Origin: Chloroflexota bacterium
Lineage (GTDB): Bacteria; Chloroflexota; UBA11872; VXOZ01
Assembly (NCBI GenBank): GCA_022824225.1
Contig: JAJEAH010000067.1
Location: 1-64,000, forward strand
DNA length: 64,000 bases
Reading direction: 5' to 3'
The notes under the pieces were generated by a model. The model saw only the letters and a program-made list of their open reading frames with translations. It was not told the DNA's origin and made no database searches. This document shows positions 15,683-23,028 of the stretch, piece after piece (position 1 is the first letter of the stretch; each line of letters opens with the position of its first letter). The position numbers were made by a program, and so were the translations under genes.

Positions 15683-16696
15683 TTAGTCCGCGCCTTCTTC
15701 GAAGAAGCGCGCCAGTTCATCCCTGGGGAACTCCGGCAGGTCGTGCCATGCGCCGTCCACCTGCAACCGGAGCCCCTGGGCGGGCGCCGTCAAACGGCCA
15801 ATGGCTGCGCACGTGATTCCCGCGTCCCGGAGCGCGTGCGTTGCCGCCAGCACGTCTCGCGGCGCGACCACTGCCAGGAGGGCCCCGGAGGCGAGCAATC
15901 CCAGTGGATCGAGTCCCAGCGCCATGCAAATCTCAGCGGTCTCCGGCAATACCTGTACAGCGCCCATATCTACGTCCACGCCACATCCGGCGCCGGCTGC
16001 CAGCTCGGCCAAGGCTGTGGCCAGGCCGCCTTCCGTGGGGTCATGCATGGCCCGTGGGCGCACCGCGCCGCAGAGCGCCTCTGCGGCGGGCACTACGCTG
16101 ATGCCGGGCTCGTCGAGCAAAGCCCGCGCGCGGTCGATGGCGGCTTGAGCAACACCGCACCGTTCAAGTTCCGCGGCGGCGTCCTGCGCGAGGATGGCGG
16201 CGCCTTCGATGGCGACGCCGCTCGTAAGGAGGAGTATGTCCCCGGGTTCGGCATTGGCGTTGACGATTAGGCGGTCTTTTGCCACCTCGCCCAACAACGT
16301 GCCGGCCAGGATCGGGCGTTCGACGCCGTCGGTCACTTCGGTGTGGCCGCCGACCAGCGTCACACCGAGTTCAGCGCACGCCGTCGTGATGTCGTCGAAT
16401 ATCTCCTTGACCGAAGCCGCCTCACAGGCGGGCGGCAACAGCAAGGTGCCCAGAAACCAGCGGGGCCGCGCGCCCATAGCCGCCACGTCGTTGGCATTGA
16501 TCTGAAGAGCGTACCAGCCGAGCCGGTGCGCTGTGAACGTAATGGGATCGCTCTTCGCCACCAAGTAGCGGTCGCCAATGTCTAGCACGGCGGCGTCCTC
16601 GCCCACGCGCGGCCCCACGACGACGTCCGGATCCTGGATCACTACCCCTGCAAGCAGCTCCCCCAAGAGAGCGGCCGGCAGTTTACCTTGCAGCAT
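15683..16696 (-). CDS. AIR synthase-related (HypE/ThiL-like) ATP-binding protein
   Basis: 337 aa. The N-terminal half has VGEDAAVLDIGDRYLVAKSDPIT and ALQINANDVAAMGA, the ATP/Mg-binding pattern of the PurM superfamily, and TLVGGHTEVTDG; the C-terminal half has MHDPTEGGLATALAEL. It is closest in pattern to HypE-like proteins, but it lacks the C-terminal Cys that HypE carbamoylates and no other hydrogenase maturation genes are near. It starts 4 bp after the rtcB stop, so it is probably made together with the RNA ligase. Role unknown. Confidence 0.8.
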   Translation of the reverse strand: MLQGKLPAALLGELLAGVVIQDPDVVVGPRVGEDAAVLDIGDRYLVAKSDPITFTAHRLGWYALQINANDVAAMGARPRWFLGTLLLPPACEAASVKEIFDDITTACAELGVTLVGGHTEVTDGVERPILAGTLLGEVAKDRLIVNANAEPGDILLLTSGVAIEGAAILAQDAAAELERCGVAQAAIDRARALLDEPGISVVPAAEALCGAVRPRAMHDPTEGGLATALAELAAGAGCGVDVDMGAVQVLPETAEICMALGLDPLGLLASGALLAVVAPRDVLAATHALRDAGITCAAIGRLTAPAQGLRLQVDGAWHDLPEFPRDELARFFEEGAD

Positions 16697-16700
16697 GGCG

Positions 16701-18194
16701 TCAGCCCTTGATTACGCCCAGCGGGCGTACTCTCGCCACCACGCGGGCAATACCGGCTTGTTCGACAACGTTCACGACTTCCCGCACGTCCTTGTAGGCG
16801 TCGCTGGCTTCTTCCAGCAGGCCGGACTTGCTCTGCGCCCGCACGAAGATGCCTTGTTGTTGGAGCATCTTAGCCAGATTCACGCCGGCCAATTTCCGCT
16901 TGGCCGCGCCGCGGCTGAGCACGCGTCCCGCGCCGTGGCAGGTGGACGCAAACGTTTCTGCACGCGCCCGCTCTTGCCCCACCAGAATGTATGAATAGCG
17001 TCCCATGTCACCGGGAATGAGCACCGGCTGGCCCACGGCGCGGTACGTGGCCGGCACTTCCGGATCGCCCGCGGGCAGGGCGCGGGTCGCGCCCTTGCGG
17101 TGGACGCACAGTTCCACTTCACTGCCGTTGACCCGGTGTTGTTCCATCTTGGCGATGTTGTGCGCCACGTCGTAGACCACGCCAATGTCGATGTCCGGCT
17201 GGGAACGGCCGAGAACGTGCTGGAAGGCGCGGCGCACGCGGTCCGTGATGGTCTGGCGATTGGCAAAAGCGAAATTTGCCGCCGCGGCCATAGCGCCAAG
17301 ATACGCTTGCCCCTCCGGCGATCGGATGGGCGCGCACGCCAACTGCCTATCAGGTACGTCGATTCCGTACTGCGTCATCGCCCGCTGCATGACGCCCAGG
17401 GATTCTTGGCAGACCTGGTGGCCCAACCCGCGCGAGCCGGTGTGGATTGAGAGCACGACCTGACCGGGCTCGGTGATACCAAATGCGCGCGCGGCTGTTT
17501 CGTCCGCTATAGTCTCCACGGTCTGGACTTCCAGAAAGTGGTTGCCCGAGCCCAGCGAGCCAAGCTGCGGCGCACCCCGCTGCCGCGCCCGCTGGCTCAC
17601 CTGGGCGGGATCCGCGCCGGGCAGGCAGCCGCCCAACTCGATCGCTTCGAGATCGTCGGGCAGGCCGTGGCCCTGGTCCACCGCCCACCGGGCGCCCGCC
17701 GCGAGAGCACCCTCGATATTCGTCGTCTTCCCGCGCCTTTTCCCCCGGCGGCCCAGGCCGGTCGGCACGTCGCGAAAGAGTTGGTTGACAATGTCCGGCA
17801 AACGGTCTCTCACAGCGCGCTCATGCAGGTTGGTCCGCAAGAGCCGCACGCCGCAGTTTATGTCAAAGCCAACCCCGCCCGGTGAGACCACGCCGTCCTC
17901 CGGTCGCATCGCGGCCACGCCGCCAATGGGAAACCCGTAGCCCCAGTGAATGTCCGGCATGGCCAGCGCGTTGCCCACGATGCCCGGCAACGTTGCCATG
18001 TTGGCCACCTGCTGTATCGCCATGTCGCCGGCCATAGAGTCGATCATGGCCTCATCGGCAAAGATGAGCCCCGGCACACGCATGCCGGAGAGATAGTCGG
18101 TTGGCAGTTCCCAGCGGACGGCATCGCGCCGCCGCAATACGGTTCGCCAGCCCTGAGGAGCTTTCTTGCCCATCGCAATCCGCCTATCAGACAT
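16701..18194 (-). CDS. rtcB: RNA-splicing ligase RtcB
   Basis: 497 aa, typical length. The Mn/GTP active-site residues are recognisable: SPGGVGFDINCGVR near residue 112 (Asp and Cys), LGSGNHFLEV near 230 and CHGAGRVLSR near 425 with the histidine that becomes guanylylated. RtcB joins 2',3'-cyclic phosphate or 3'-phosphate RNA ends to 5'-OH ends. The ATG at 18194 overlaps the archease gene by 8 bp; an ATG at 18173 (MGKKAPQ) with GGCGG upstream is a plausible alternative. The neighbouring archease is its known activator. Confidence 0.95.
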   Translation of the reverse strand: MSDRRIAMGKKAPQGWRTVLRRRDAVRWELPTDYLSGMRVPGLIFADEAMIDSMAGDMAIQQVANMATLPGIVGNALAMPDIHWGYGFPIGGVAAMRPEDGVVSPGGVGFDINCGVRLLRTNLHERAVRDRLPDIVNQLFRDVPTGLGRRGKRRGKTTNIEGALAAGARWAVDQGHGLPDDLEAIELGGCLPGADPAQVSQRARQRGAPQLGSLGSGNHFLEVQTVETIADETAARAFGITEPGQVVLSIHTGSRGLGHQVCQESLGVMQRAMTQYGIDVPDRQLACAPIRSPEGQAYLGAMAAAANFAFANRQTITDRVRRAFQHVLGRSQPDIDIGVVYDVAHNIAKMEQHRVNGSEVELCVHRKGATRALPAGDPEVPATYRAVGQPVLIPGDMGRYSYILVGQERARAETFASTCHGAGRVLSRGAAKRKLAGVNLAKMLQQQGIFVRAQSKSGLLEEASDAYKDVREVVNVVEQAGIARVVARVRPLGVIKG

Positions 18195-18654
18195 CAAAGT
18201 AGACCTGAATTGTGGTGCGTTGCCGGCTTATGTCAACGCGCAATTCGTGGTACGTCACCGCCTTGATCTCGATTCCGCCCTCCGCGTCGTGCTCGTCACC
18301 ATAGCAGACACCGGTGACTAGGGCCTTGCACTCCGGTGGTGCGCACAACGTAAACGCGCACGACTGCGCGACCATACCTTCCACAGTAAAGGAGAAGAGC
18401 AACTCGGCCAGCCAGTTCACCACCACGTCCGGCCAGGTGTCGCCGCTCACCGCGACCTCTAGGCTAACCGGCTCTCCGGTCACGCGGGCGGGGTCGCGGC
18501 CAAGAGTGATAGCGTACATCCCCCGGGTGACCGCCGCAAGGGCTGTTGCCGCATCCGGCCCCCACGCCTTCACGCCGACGTCGGCCGTATGATCCAGCAA
18601 CACATAGCCGGCGTCGTCAGGGGCATGTGCCTGTCCGCTAGTGGTCGTGCCCAT
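18187..18654 (-). CDS. Archease (RtcB cofactor)
   Basis: 155 aa from the ATG at 18654; a longer in-frame extension lies inside the preceding PHP-domain gene and is Arg-rich noise. The archease hallmark LDHTADVGVKAWGPD near residues 19-33 and the C-terminal AVTYHELRVD with a conserved metal-binding Asp/His arrangement are present. Archease speeds RtcB guanylylation and multiple turnover. The gene overlaps the PHP gene by 17 bp upstream and rtcB by about 8 bp downstream. Confidence 0.92.
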   Translation of the reverse strand: MGTTTSGQAHAPDDAGYVLLDHTADVGVKAWGPDAATALAAVTRGMYAITLGRDPARVTGEPVSLEVAVSGDTWPDVVVNWLAELLFSFTVEGMVAQSCAFTLCAPPECKALVTGVCYGDEHDAEGGIEIKAVTYHELRVDISRQRTTIQVYFDV

Positions 18655-21136
18655 GGTCGTGCAAGCGGCCCTGCAGGTGCGCCTTGGCATGTTCGAACAC
18701 CCGGCGCACACCGGCGTGGCGCTCCGCGTCCGCCCGCGTCGCCAGGGTATCCAGCCACGTGATGCCGCCATCGAGGATCGTCATCATGTAGGTCGCATCG
18801 CTGGGGTTGAAGAGGTCCTGGCCGCCGGCCACAACGTACACCGGTGAGGTGTGCGCAGCGACATTGACGATCCACGAGTGCTGCACTTCCAGGGAACTCA
18901 CGCAGCGCGCGGCAATCCAGCCGCTGCCGTCGAGTTTTACTTCCCGGCTGAGCCGGCACGACTTGCCGCCGTCCGCCACGGGTTGAGTTGCCACTACGGC
19001 GCCGTTGCAGACGATTTGCAGCTCATGGAACGGCAAGACGGACTCCGCCCAGGCTTCCACCGTGAGCGTGCCGCCGCCGTTGGGCAGTTTGAGTTCGTCG
19101 CCCGGCTGCTTGCCTTCCACGCGTACGTCGATGAGCGGGCCGCTCGTGGTAAATGTGCGGCCGCCGCGCACGGCCTGCGCCCAGGTGTCAAATGAGAATT
19201 CGTCCTGCAAGAGGGCATACGTGCGCACGCCACCAACCGGGATTGCGGCGCTCATCTTGTCCGTGCCGCCCACAGCAGCCACGCGGTAGCCATTGTTGAG
19301 GAAGCGGTACCACTCGTTGATGCCGAACTGCTCCATGGTGGGTGTGAAGTACTTCAGCTCCACCGCGTCCACCTTGCCCAGCACGATTTCCGCCACGGCT
19401 TCCGTGTACGGATTGGGGAAGTGCGGGATGACCACCAGGCCGTCTTGGGCCCGGGCGCGGTCCGCCCACTCGCTCATGCTGCTCACCACGGGATCGCCGA
19501 TGTAGCTTTCGGAGGGCCCGCCGGTGGTCATGGGATAGATTGGTTCGCCCTGCACGCCGAGCAGGCTCATGTGGCCCAGCAGGTGCTGGCGGTTCTCCGT
19601 ACCCACGTAGACCACGGTATCATCCGTGCTCACACCGGAAACATCGCCGGTAACGTCGGCGACATTCGTGTACAGGTCGCCCCACTGCGACGCGAGAAGA
19701 TTGATAAGGTTGACGCCTTCAGCCTGGCCTTCCAGCCACGCAGTCTGAGGAGAGATGAAGTGCACGTGGGTGTCTGCCGTTACCCAGCCGTTGGCCCGCC
19801 AATTCAGGGGCCGCGCCAGCTTGAGGGTGAGTTCGCGCTGTCCCGGCGCAATATGCAGGCGCTTGCGCAGCGGCTGGTACTCGAAGCCCTTGAAGATCTC
19901 GACGAAGACCTCTCCCACCGGAAGTTCAATCTGAAACGTGCCGTCCACATAGGCGTACTGCGTCGCGCCGAGCTTGAGGTCGCCCGCGTAGTCTTCGAAC
20001 CAATTGTCGTTCACCTCGTGGCGGTGGCCGTACGGCGGGAAGTATCGTCCGTCCCGCGAGCGAAAGTGGACGCGCGCCGGCGTTGTCTTGCCGCTGGCGG
20101 CTTCTTCCAGGCGCACGTGCACCCACGACCGATCCGGAGTCAGGATTTCCACCCGCACTTTACCGTCGTCGCTGGCGCTCAGGCCGGACTCATACAGCGC
20201 ATCCATGGGCACGGGGTGTCCGGATACGTCCAGCGTGGCGTCGGGACTGGCCGTGACATCTACGATGAGGGACTTCTCACCGTCCTCGGCCTCCGGCTCG
20301 CCCAGGCCCTGCCCTTCATCCGCCAACCAGGCATCCGAGTCGAAGCCCGGCACCGCGTACTTGCGGGCCAACGTGCCAAGGTCCACGCTCACCGCCGTCT
20401 CTTCGGGAGGAGCGTCTGCCTTATCCGGCGGCAGCGCAATGCGGAAACTCTCCAGTTGCTTGTGGCGCAACGGGTGATGCTTGCCCGTGAACAGCGTGAT
20501 GCCGCCCACCACCACATTTGCGCCGCCGGTGGACGCCAGGTGCAGCGAGGCTACGGTGCGGTCGGGATGGGGATTGGGCAGGGCGAATATCCAATAATGG
20601 GCGGCGGTGCCTCCCGGTTCGCCGGTGACGGAGGTCTGATAGCGCCCCCACGCGCCGCGTGGGTAGGGCCCGTTGAGGTCCGCCGGCACCGTGCCTACTT
20701 GGGGCCTGGACGCGAACGCCAGTTGCCCCCATGCAACCGTGGAGTTGATCTCGAAGCGCCGGCGGATGGCTTGAGTCACCTCGCTGCCGTCGGCGTAGCG
20801 CATGGTATAGGCGGCAAGCTGCTTGCCTGGCTCTATGACCATGCCCCGCAGGCCGGGCTGGGCAGTGGCGCCGGGCTCGGCGTCGCAGAAGTGGGCAAAG
20901 ACGAAGTGTGAAATACCGCCCCGGTCAACCGGCACGGCCACGGGCTCAGCGCGCAAGTGAATCCAACTCGCCGTCGCGTCCGCCGCGCCCAGCGCAAAGG
21001 GAATGCCCCAAAACTCGCACTCGCCTTCCGGGAGACGCGCCAGCAGCGGCGCTACCGAGCTGTCCCACGAGGATGCATCATCCTGACGCCCCGCATTGCG
21101 CACAGCCGTCAAGTCCAAGGGAGTCGAGAAACTCAT
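18638..21136 (-). CDS. CehA/McbA-like PHP-domain metallohydrolase
   Basis: 832 aa, preceded by GGAGGA. The N-terminal ~400 residues look like beta-sandwich sugar-binding or Ig-like modules. The metal-dependent PHP-type domain starts near residue 455 with ADTHVHF, continues with IPHFPNPYTEAV and ends with VGGTDK, giving the expected His/Asp ligands. The C-terminal beta domain ends in HDHGHDH. No signal peptide is visible. CehA-type proteins hydrolyse esters and carbamates; the substrate here is unknown. The last codons overlap the archease start, so it heads an operon with archease-rtcB-AIR synthase. Confidence 0.8.
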   Translation of the reverse strand: MSFSTPLDLTAVRNAGRQDDASSWDSSVAPLLARLPEGECEFWGIPFALGAADATASWIHLRAEPVAVPVDRGGISHFVFAHFCDAEPGATAQPGLRGMVIEPGKQLAAYTMRYADGSEVTQAIRRRFEINSTVAWGQLAFASRPQVGTVPADLNGPYPRGAWGRYQTSVTGEPGGTAAHYWIFALPNPHPDRTVASLHLASTGGANVVVGGITLFTGKHHPLRHKQLESFRIALPPDKADAPPEETAVSVDLGTLARKYAVPGFDSDAWLADEGQGLGEPEAEDGEKSLIVDVTASPDATLDVSGHPVPMDALYESGLSASDDGKVRVEILTPDRSWVHVRLEEAASGKTTPARVHFRSRDGRYFPPYGHRHEVNDNWFEDYAGDLKLGATQYAYVDGTFQIELPVGEVFVEIFKGFEYQPLRKRLHIAPGQRELTLKLARPLNWRANGWVTADTHVHFISPQTAWLEGQAEGVNLINLLASQWGDLYTNVADVTGDVSGVSTDDTVVYVGTENRQHLLGHMSLLGVQGEPIYPMTTGGPSESYIGDPVVSSMSEWADRARAQDGLVVIPHFPNPYTEAVAEIVLGKVDAVELKYFTPTMEQFGINEWYRFLNNGYRVAAVGGTDKMSAAIPVGGVRTYALLQDEFSFDTWAQAVRGGRTFTTSGPLIDVRVEGKQPGDELKLPNGGGTLTVEAWAESVLPFHELQIVCNGAVVATQPVADGGKSCRLSREVKLDGSGWIAARCVSSLEVQHSWIVNVAAHTSPVYVVAGGQDLFNPSDATYMMTILDGGITWLDTLATRADAERHAGVRRVFEHAKAHLQGRLHDHGHDH

Positions 21137-21273: not shown

Positions 21274-22230
21274 CTATTCTTGGCGGGGATTCTGGGGGTT
21301 CGCGTCCTGAACGGCTTGGAGAGCGCGCATCGTCGGCAATACCGCTTCACCCGACACCAAGGGTTCGCGCCCCTGGCGCAGCGCGCTGATGAGCTCGATG
21401 TTCTGCAAGTATACGGCGCTCGCCTCTTCATTCTCACCACCGGCGGCTACGATCTGGTCGTTGGGGTCAACCAACTTGCCGTCTCGGATCATCAAGGTCG
21501 TTTCTTCGCCGATGATGAGGATTTCGAGGAAAGGCCGCATCGTGTTATACGAGAGGGCGCACGAGACGATTTGCTGGCGGGGTGTGCGCATGGAAACGGC
21601 GAGGTCGAGTGGAATGCCCAATTCGCTGTGAGGCGGCCCCATGTACCCCGCAACGTCAATCGCGGGTTCCCCCAGCAGCCAGAGCGCCGTATCCACAGCG
21701 TGGCAGCCGTGGTGCCACAGCAGGTTGTCCGTCCACGACCGCCGCCGGCCCTGCCAGTTCACGTTTTCGCGGCGGAGAAAGCCGTAGTGAATGAAGACGC
21801 TGTGCGCCTGCAGGTCACCCTCGGCAATGCGCTGCCGCACCGCCGACAGGGTCGGCCAGAAGCGCATAGTGTGGGCCACCATGAGGGTCCGTTCTTGCCG
21901 CTCGGCCAGCGCGGTCAGCATCTCAGACTCCGCCAGGGACAGCGCGAGGGGTATTTCCACCAGCACGTGCTTGCTGGCTTCCAGCGCGGCCTTGGCCTGG
22001 GCGGCATGTTTGGCGCTGGGAGACGTGATCACGACCGCGTCTAGATCGTCCCGCGCGAGGGCTTCATCCAGGTCAATAGTCGCCAGCGCCGCGCCGCACT
22101 TTTCGGCAAACGACTGGGTGGGCGCCAAGAGCCGGCCCACAACCGACGAAATCTGTACGCCGGGTATGCGGGCGAACGAGCGGCGGTGGACTTCCGCGAT
22201 ACTGCCGTACCCAACCATGCAAAGGTTCAT
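21274..22230 (-). CDS. Gfo/Idh/MocA-like protein lacking the EKP lysine
   Basis: 318 aa. The N-terminal Rossmann motif is MVGYGSIAEVH and the C-terminal WHHGCHAVDTALWLLG carries the usual His and Asp. The catalytic EKP motif is replaced by VEIP (Glu92-Ile93-Pro94), so the active-site lysine is absent. A subset of the superfamily is known to have this change and act on oxidised aromatic or keto substrates by another mechanism, or not to be redox enzymes. It lies 137 bp upstream of the PHP gene on the same strand and may share its transcript. Confidence 0.85.
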   Translation of the reverse strand: MNLCMVGYGSIAEVHRRSFARIPGVQISSVVGRLLAPTQSFAEKCGAALATIDLDEALARDDLDAVVITSPSAKHAAQAKAALEASKHVLVEIPLALSLAESEMLTALAERQERTLMVAHTMRFWPTLSAVRQRIAEGDLQAHSVFIHYGFLRRENVNWQGRRRSWTDNLLWHHGCHAVDTALWLLGEPAIDVAGYMGPPHSELGIPLDLAVSMRTPRQQIVSCALSYNTMRPFLEILIIGEETTLMIRDGKLVDPNDQIVAAGGENEEASAVYLQNIELISALRQGREPLVSGEAVLPTMRALQAVQDANPQNPRQE

Positions 22231-22406: not shown

Positions 22407-22859
22407 TTAGCGCGTGTGGCCGACCAGGCTCGTATCGGTTACTGCCGCCGCGACCGCGTCATCATCGACCTCGCCGGCGGGCGGTTTCGGGATGACGAAC
22501 GCGCGTCTGTCCACGTCCGTATCCACTACCTCCAGCGTCTCTCCGGCGGCGAGCGTAGTCCCCATCTTCTCCAGCCAAGCGGCCGGATTGTTAAGGATAG
22601 CGGCCTTGTAGTCCGGGTCTTTCCAGTAGACGGGCGCTTTGCCCAGAAACGAGGGATAACAACTGCACGGCGTGCAGATCACCATGTGATGCGTAGCGCC
22701 GCCGTTGTCATAGACCGCCAGTCCCAGGCGCTCGGGCACGTCTATGGCGAGTTCCGCGAGCGCTGCGCGCGGATTGGCCAGGAGACGGTCCTTGAACGCC
22801 GCATCCTCCCAGGCGCGTTTAACAACTCTCTGTGCGTTGGCAAAGTCTGAATGAGACAT
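22407..22859 (-). CDS. Orphan nitrile hydratase alpha/thiocyanate hydrolase gamma-like protein
   Basis: 150 aa with a very strong ribosome binding site (GAGGAGGGG). The claw-setting metal motif CTPCSCYP is intact at residues 62-69 (Cys62, Cys65, Ser66, Cys67) and is of the cobalt type (Thr and Tyr neighbours). Downstream YWKDPDYKAAILNNP, RRAFVIPKPPAG and TDTSLVG match the C-terminal half of nitrile hydratase alpha. It is about 50-60 residues shorter than the usual ~200 aa because the N-terminal arm that wraps the beta subunit is missing. No beta subunit or metallochaperone gene lies in the window. It is divergent from tRNA-Gly. Function unknown; hydration of nitrile, cyanate or thiocyanate are guesses. 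Confidence 0.8.
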   Translation of the reverse strand: MSHSDFANAQRVVKRAWEDAAFKDRLLANPRAALAELAIDVPERLGLAVYDNGGATHHMVICTPCSCYPSFLGKAPVYWKDPDYKAAILNNPAAWLEKMGTTLAAGETLEVVDTDVDRRAFVIPKPPAGEVDDDAVAAAVTDTSLVGHTR

Positions 22860-23028
22860 AGTTCCCCTCCTCTGCGAGTGTGGAATTCAGGATACCATAC
22901 GTACCGGTCGCCAGCCCTTGGCTGCCAGCTACGCGGGGGGTTCGATGAGGTGAATTTGGCGTCCGATAGCGCTCTGCGGCGACGCAAAGCCGCACGGGGT
23001 AGGCCTGAGTTCCGAATTCCCCCAAGTC

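Follow-up and report, generated by a model that had tools for sequence, protein, structure and literature searches.

Nitrile hydratase (NHase) is an industrial enzyme that has been studied as an alpha-beta heterodimer with its active site at the subunit interface. The gamma subunit of thiocyanate hydrolase (SCNase; TIGR03887) has a homologous claw domain. ToyJ, the alpha subunit of toyocamycin NHase, normally belongs to a three-subunit enzyme (PMC7329996), and cysteine modification and activity have been reported for ToyJ alone (Nelp 2014, as cited in PMC7329996). The leaders of the NHLP (proteusin) RiPP precursors (TIGR03793) have no claw, end in Gly-Gly followed by a variable core, and have been proposed to derive from the enzyme by a simple 63-residue deletion (PMC2887384). 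An NHase of unknown origin partly purified from a marine sponge gave bands of 26 and 72 kDa (PMC3766881); we draw no link to it because these bands misfit a protein of 150 residues.

Here we describe a small, conserved relative of the NHase alpha subunit, 150 residues long, encoded in a 64,000-nucleotide stretch of a Chloroflexota genome (the window). It shares with the NHase alpha subunits (TIGR01323, PF02979; PDB 1ire and 3qxe) the catalytic domain, the C..CSC claw with the Co-type Thr, and the predicted fold, but it has neither the N-terminal arm nor a beta gene in its genome. It also differs from them in having Pro for the claw Leu, Ala for Tyr, Phe, or Trp at residue 120, Thr for Ser at residue 114, and.YWK..YK.A in place of WYK..YR.R.

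The short alpha gene and its conservation

The gene, its upstream signal, and the conserved sites of its product are as follows.
22407..22859, minus strand: arm-less NHase-alpha-type coding sequence without beta, 150 aa (PF02979 match and genus orthologues)
22864..22871, minus strand: ribosome binding site AGGAGGGG, read from the sequence
22659..22676, minus strand: claw motif CTPCSC, residues 62 to 67 (C..CSC invariant in relatives)
22410..22412, minus strand: C-terminal Arg150, the last residue in nine of nine short proteins aligned

The open reading frame starts with ATG, and the 3' end of AGGAGGGG lies 4 nt before it; GGAGG-type sites also precede all four genus orthologues. The product matches PF02979 with an E value of 4e-33 and 114.8 bits, well above the curated cutoff of 27.2, and its residues 7 to 148 align to profile positions 37/39 to 183 of 184, leaving the first ~38 positions, the N-terminal arm, unmatched. 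The equivalog models were not reached, with 104.6 bits for NHase alpha (TIGR01323; cutoff, 249.85) and 65.5 bits for thiocyanate hydrolase gamma (TIGR03887; cutoff, 291.45); in further difference from thiocyanate hydrolase, the alpha and beta partner genes of that enzyme are absent. The nearest solved chains are Co-type NHase alphas. By its sequence match, the protein is a genuine NHase-alpha homologue.

CTPCSC conforms to the C-x-x-C-S-C pattern, and by homology the putative metal ligands are C62, C65, C67, and the backbone nitrogens of S66 and C67. The preliminary description of this DNA had noted an intact cobalt-type claw, the loss of the arm, and a strong ribosome binding site. All three observations hold, with the qualification that the claw, while retaining its ligands and the Co-type Thr, has Pro as its middle residue instead of the Leu shared by the 36 canonical alphas in the comparison, a change that could alter its geometry.

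In the four genus mates (G001 to G004), the orthologues are exactly 150 residues long, 63% to 71% identical, and found at the same locus, between the gene following a tRNA-Gly and genes for a Gfo/Idh oxidoreductase and a CehA-like protein. The dN/dS ratios among the genus orthologues are 0.06 to 0.19 (Nei-Gojobori, with dS partly near saturation), which points to strong purifying selection. Homology, orthologues, and selection together indicate a real gene, and the orthologues and dN/dS ratios rule out a chance open reading frame or a pseudogene. The only genus genome lacking the gene, G005, is 69% complete.

Further short relatives, with 43% to 53% identity, were found in families f5 (G016 and G020) and f4 (G021 and G037). 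In 400 sampled genomes of the phylum, late-starting alpha matches outside the class were limited to a single one in G183 and to fragments in G075 and G246; the short family is therefore known from one class only, a restriction that holds for the collections searched. One scan of genome contigs gave matches in the genus only, and a scan of viral contigs gave none. All plasmid matches were below 60% identity; the four inspected are full-length alphas, three of them adjoining annotated SH3-like genes.

The missing beta subunit and the beta-less lineage

The source genome (87 contigs, 3.37 Mb, 95% complete) contains no PF02979 match other than the short alpha. The beta-subunit domains PF02211 (C-terminal) and PF21006 (N-terminal) had no match in it at an E value of ≤0.1, and the cobW family had none above the cutoff; as PF21006 also covers beta-like activators, no gene of that kind was found either. 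The protein had been described beforehand as an orphan with neither beta nor activator gene in the window, and a genome search for beta and P47K-type genes had been proposed; the orphan status thus extends from the window to the whole genome. Since the only amidase-signature gene is probably the housekeeping gatA, the classical NHase-amidase route is not visible as far as the amidase-signature family is concerned.

Co-occurrence was assessed in 41 species genomes of the class. Canonical alphas are present in 11 of these (G003, G005, G006, G007, G008, G010, G013, G014, G018, G025, and G029), and each of the 11 also encodes the two beta domains. Another 11 (G000, G001, G002, G004, G012, G016, G020, G021, G022, G026, and G037) carry only an alpha of the beta-less type, and none of them matched either beta profile; the genomes are drafts, and the absence of beta rests on the agreement across these 11. 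G003 alone has both kinds, with its canonical alpha-beta pair at a separate locus. A hidden beta gene was thus sought with two Pfam models in the source genome and across the class, and none accompanies the beta-less alphas. Discovery of a beta gene at another site of the genome, co-occurring with the short alpha in relatives, had been named as the finding that would overturn the idea of a stand-alone metal-claw protein. The outcome was negative in the source genome and in all 11 class genomes with only beta-less alphas; as far as gene content goes, the idea is thus well supported.

PF21006 matches were also seen in genomes where no NHase alpha reached the stringent cutoff, namely, G028 (G028:C12:56495-56785), G015 (G015:C52:15769-16056), G030, G035, and G039. 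They represent lone beta-like or activator-like genes, and those of G030 and G035 contain a stop. In three genomes with canonical alphas, the N- and C-terminal beta domains are encoded by separate small open reading frames adjoining alpha (G008:C102:8175-8766, G010:C127:24356-24947, and G018:C211:4911-5503), a three-subunit arrangement like that of toyocamycin NHase or thiocyanate hydrolase.

Three of the beta-less alphas, all from family f2, are full length.
G012, L036:6872-7507, minus strand: full-length beta-less alpha, arm kept
G022, L041:8137-8748, minus strand: full-length beta-less alpha, arm kept
G026, L042:7540-8193, minus strand: full-length beta-less alpha, arm kept

No beta was found by profile search in these three genomes, and their alphas are a second beta-less form within the same class. 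A phylogeny of 48 alphas sets the nine short and three full-length beta-less sequences apart from the 36 others, with a branch support of 100/99. C..CSC is invariant in all 12, which come from four families. The middle residue of the claw is Pro, Gln, Thr, or Ser in the 12 beta-less proteins (CTSCSC and CTTCSC in the f2 proteins) versus Leu in the canonical ones. Residue 114 is Thr in 12 of 12, versus Ser (33 sequences) or Ala (3 sequences) in canonical alphas, and residue 120 is Ala or Cys, versus Tyr, Phe, or Trp.

The f2 proteins resemble the short alpha in their side of the tree, in the lack of beta in the genome, in the non-Leu claw, and in Thr114, and differ from it in keeping the N-terminal arm. 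Beta independence thus seems to be linked to changes in the claw loop, and loss of the arm would either have followed as a second step or represent an alternative state. The f2 neighbors read are unrelated genes (DUF3500, PGI, MatE, SpoIIE, and DUF433).

Internal repeat and possible ancestry

On the basis of profile comparison and a predicted structure, the short alpha consists essentially of two homologous helix-helix-helix-strand-strand (HHHEE) repeats, joined by a linker that carries the claw.
22677..22814, minus strand: repeat 1, residues 16 to 61, HHHEE unit before the claw (hhalign and AlphaFold2)
22491..22628, minus strand: repeat 2, residues 78 to 123, HHHEE unit after the claw (hhalign and AlphaFold2)

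The halves of the nine-sequence short family aligned to each other in hhalign with an E value of 4.7e-12 and a score of 59, whereas none of 30 controls with shuffled columns scored above 15.3. Those of the canonical alphas gave a score of 39.6 (E value, 1.5e-7) versus 17.0 after shuffling. Across all PF02979 alphas compared, canonical ones included, the catalytic domain is internally duplicated, and the claw lies between the two copies. An AlphaFold2 model built from four input sequences (mean pLDDT, 74.5; pTM, 0.68) shows the HHHEE order twice, again with the claw in between; it is least certain at residues 61 to 80 and at the C terminus, with a pLDDT of ~53 at the claw. NHase alphas and SCNase gammas account for all of its top structural matches, at a TM score of ~0.6 and an rmsd above 5, so that the prediction of the overall packing is only rough. 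The next match, not significant by E value, is a proteusin (NHLP) precursor, with 45 residues at 1.6 A.

The NHLP model aligns to the first half of the short proteins and to the second half of others, over overlapping profile positions. The proposed 63-residue deletion is hard to reconcile with such half-specific matches, which are more easily explained by a duplicated NHLP-like unit. The internal repeat thus offers another reading of the leader-enzyme relationship, in which the leader would correspond to one repeat unit and not to the enzyme minus 63 residues. We did not find the alpha subunit described as a duplicated NHLP-like unit in the literature searched; structural classifications may already note it.

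The short form might be conjectured to retain an ancestral or intermediate stage of NHase, a catalytically self-sufficient duplicated NHLP-like unit with a claw in its linker, to which the arm and the partnership with beta were added later. The half-domains are more similar to each other in the short family than in canonical alphas (scores of 59 and 40), and in a half-domain tree rooted at the duplication the short C-terminal halves branch first, followed by the full-length beta-less and then the beta-paired proteins (97/95 steps). That tree comprises 51 columns and a narrow set of taxa with long branches and an unresolved N-half side, and it carries a program warning about long branches that meet. 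Since canonical alphas are far more widespread, we consider this ancestry a long shot.

Possible function and gene neighborhood

Downstream of the short alpha lie the following genes.
21274..22230, minus strand: Gfo/Idh/MocA oxidoreductase with an OxRdtase_C domain, next gene downstream (PF01408/PF19858)
18638..21136, minus strand: CehA/McbA-family metallohydrolase, 832 aa, beyond the Gfo/Idh gene (NF038032; E value, 2e-49)

The CehA-like gene is syntenic with the short alpha in G001 to G004, a weak association seen within the genus only. The closest solved structure for the Gfo/Idh protein is PmdC (9azo; E value, 4e-53); a protocatechuate 4,5-cleavage context was considered on this account and rejected, as the genome has no LigB-type dioxygenase. 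In f5, MaoC and acyl-CoA dehydrogenase genes lie directly ahead of the short alpha in the same orientation, and the cluster also contains thiolase, SDR, and CoA-transferase genes. Neighbors vary between families, and the context names no substrate or pathway.

The best explanation, to which we assign a probability of about one-half, is a beta-independent NHase-alpha-type metal-claw hydratase or hydrolase whose substrate, metal, and activity are putative. According to sequence and the moderate-confidence model, the two HHHEE repeats form the alpha catalytic domain, and the CTPCSC claw occupies the loop that joins them. By homology, C62, C65, C67, and backbone amides would bind Co(III), Fe being less likely, and C65 and C67 would be oxidized to sulfinate and sulfenate. 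A small nitrile-like substrate could then be hydrated or hydrolyzed by the short alpha alone or as a homo-oligomer, at a site that would work without its usual cover, the beta subunit. Arg150 is a speculative candidate for replacing the beta arginines that stabilize the oxidized cysteines.

This reading is favored by the invariant claw (12 proteins), the selection, the co-occurrence pattern (11/11 versus 0/11), the 100/99 split in the tree, residues 64, 114, and 120, the predicted fold match, and the precedent of ToyJ as an alpha subunit active alone. By its published description, ToyJ differs from the short alpha in normally having partner subunits, whereas no beta-type gene was found in the present genome. 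Against the reading stand the lack of cobW/P47K or activator genes in the genome, the lack of a visible NHase-amidase route, neighbors without a nitrile pathway, the low pLDDT at the claw, and the Leu-to-Pro change there. A natural lineage that does without beta would provide a 150-residue scaffold for one of biology's rarest metal sites, and the features really supplied by beta would become directly testable.

A noncatalytic metal binder, using the claw as a cobalt (or iron) buffer, a chaperone, or a redox/NO sensor, is possible, if unlikely. The protein is small and beta-less, with no consistent catabolic context across families; the genome has no dedicated amidase-signature amidase, and the residues with which beta completes the NHase active site are absent. 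However, neither a metal-transport nor a regulatory gene adjoins it in the neighborhoods read, and the f5 setting, with MaoC and acyl-CoA dehydrogenase genes just before it on the same strand, is catabolic.

It is rather improbable that an unrelated partner, such as the neighboring Gfo/Idh oxidoreductase, replaces beta. The Gfo/Idh gene adjoins the short alpha wherever the genus has one (five genomes), and a relative adjoins it divergently, with no other shared synteny, in both f4 genomes. However, Gfo/Idh relatives occur in 37 of the 41 class genomes (39% to 51% identity outside the genus), most of them lacking a short alpha, and are therefore no obligate partner; in f5 the gene lies elsewhere, and the three full-length beta-less loci share no common neighbor.

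It is very unlikely that the short alpha is no enzyme but a precursor or leader akin to the NHLP RiPP precursors. Each half of the short alpha resembles an NHLP unit, both kinds of protein are arm-less, and TIGR03793 is matched with 72.5 bits (cutoff, 50.9), but this score does not discriminate because canonical alphas pass the same cutoff (66.7 bits). Unlike the NHLPs, the short alpha has an invariant claw and a conserved GHTR C terminus, with neither Gly-Gly before a tail nor a core peptide. Its immediate neighbors (the Gfo/Idh and CehA-like genes and the tRNA-Gly with the gene after it) include no maturation or peptidase-ABC export genes. This identity is largely refuted by the invariance of the claw and the conservation of the C terminus.

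A decaying remnant of a canonical NHase after loss of beta, as the absence of both arm and beta might suggest, has a negligible chance of being correct. The selection test (dN/dS well below 1) rules it out; also opposed to it are the unchanged length of 150 residues and the syntenic position among the four genus mates, the invariant claw, and the placement of the beta-less alphas in a separate deep clade that is no recent offshoot of the genus's canonical alpha in G003 and G005.

An NHLP-type RiPP precursor with a Gly-Gly leader does occur in the same class, in G025 (L081), and weak PF02979 matches in G011, G039, G040, G050, and G051 are probably of the NHLP type too. By eye, the window also encodes SelD-like (15683-16696), RtcB-like (16701-18197), and archease-like (18187-18771) proteins in a row on the minus strand (15683-18771), the archease-like gene overlapping the CehA-like gene.
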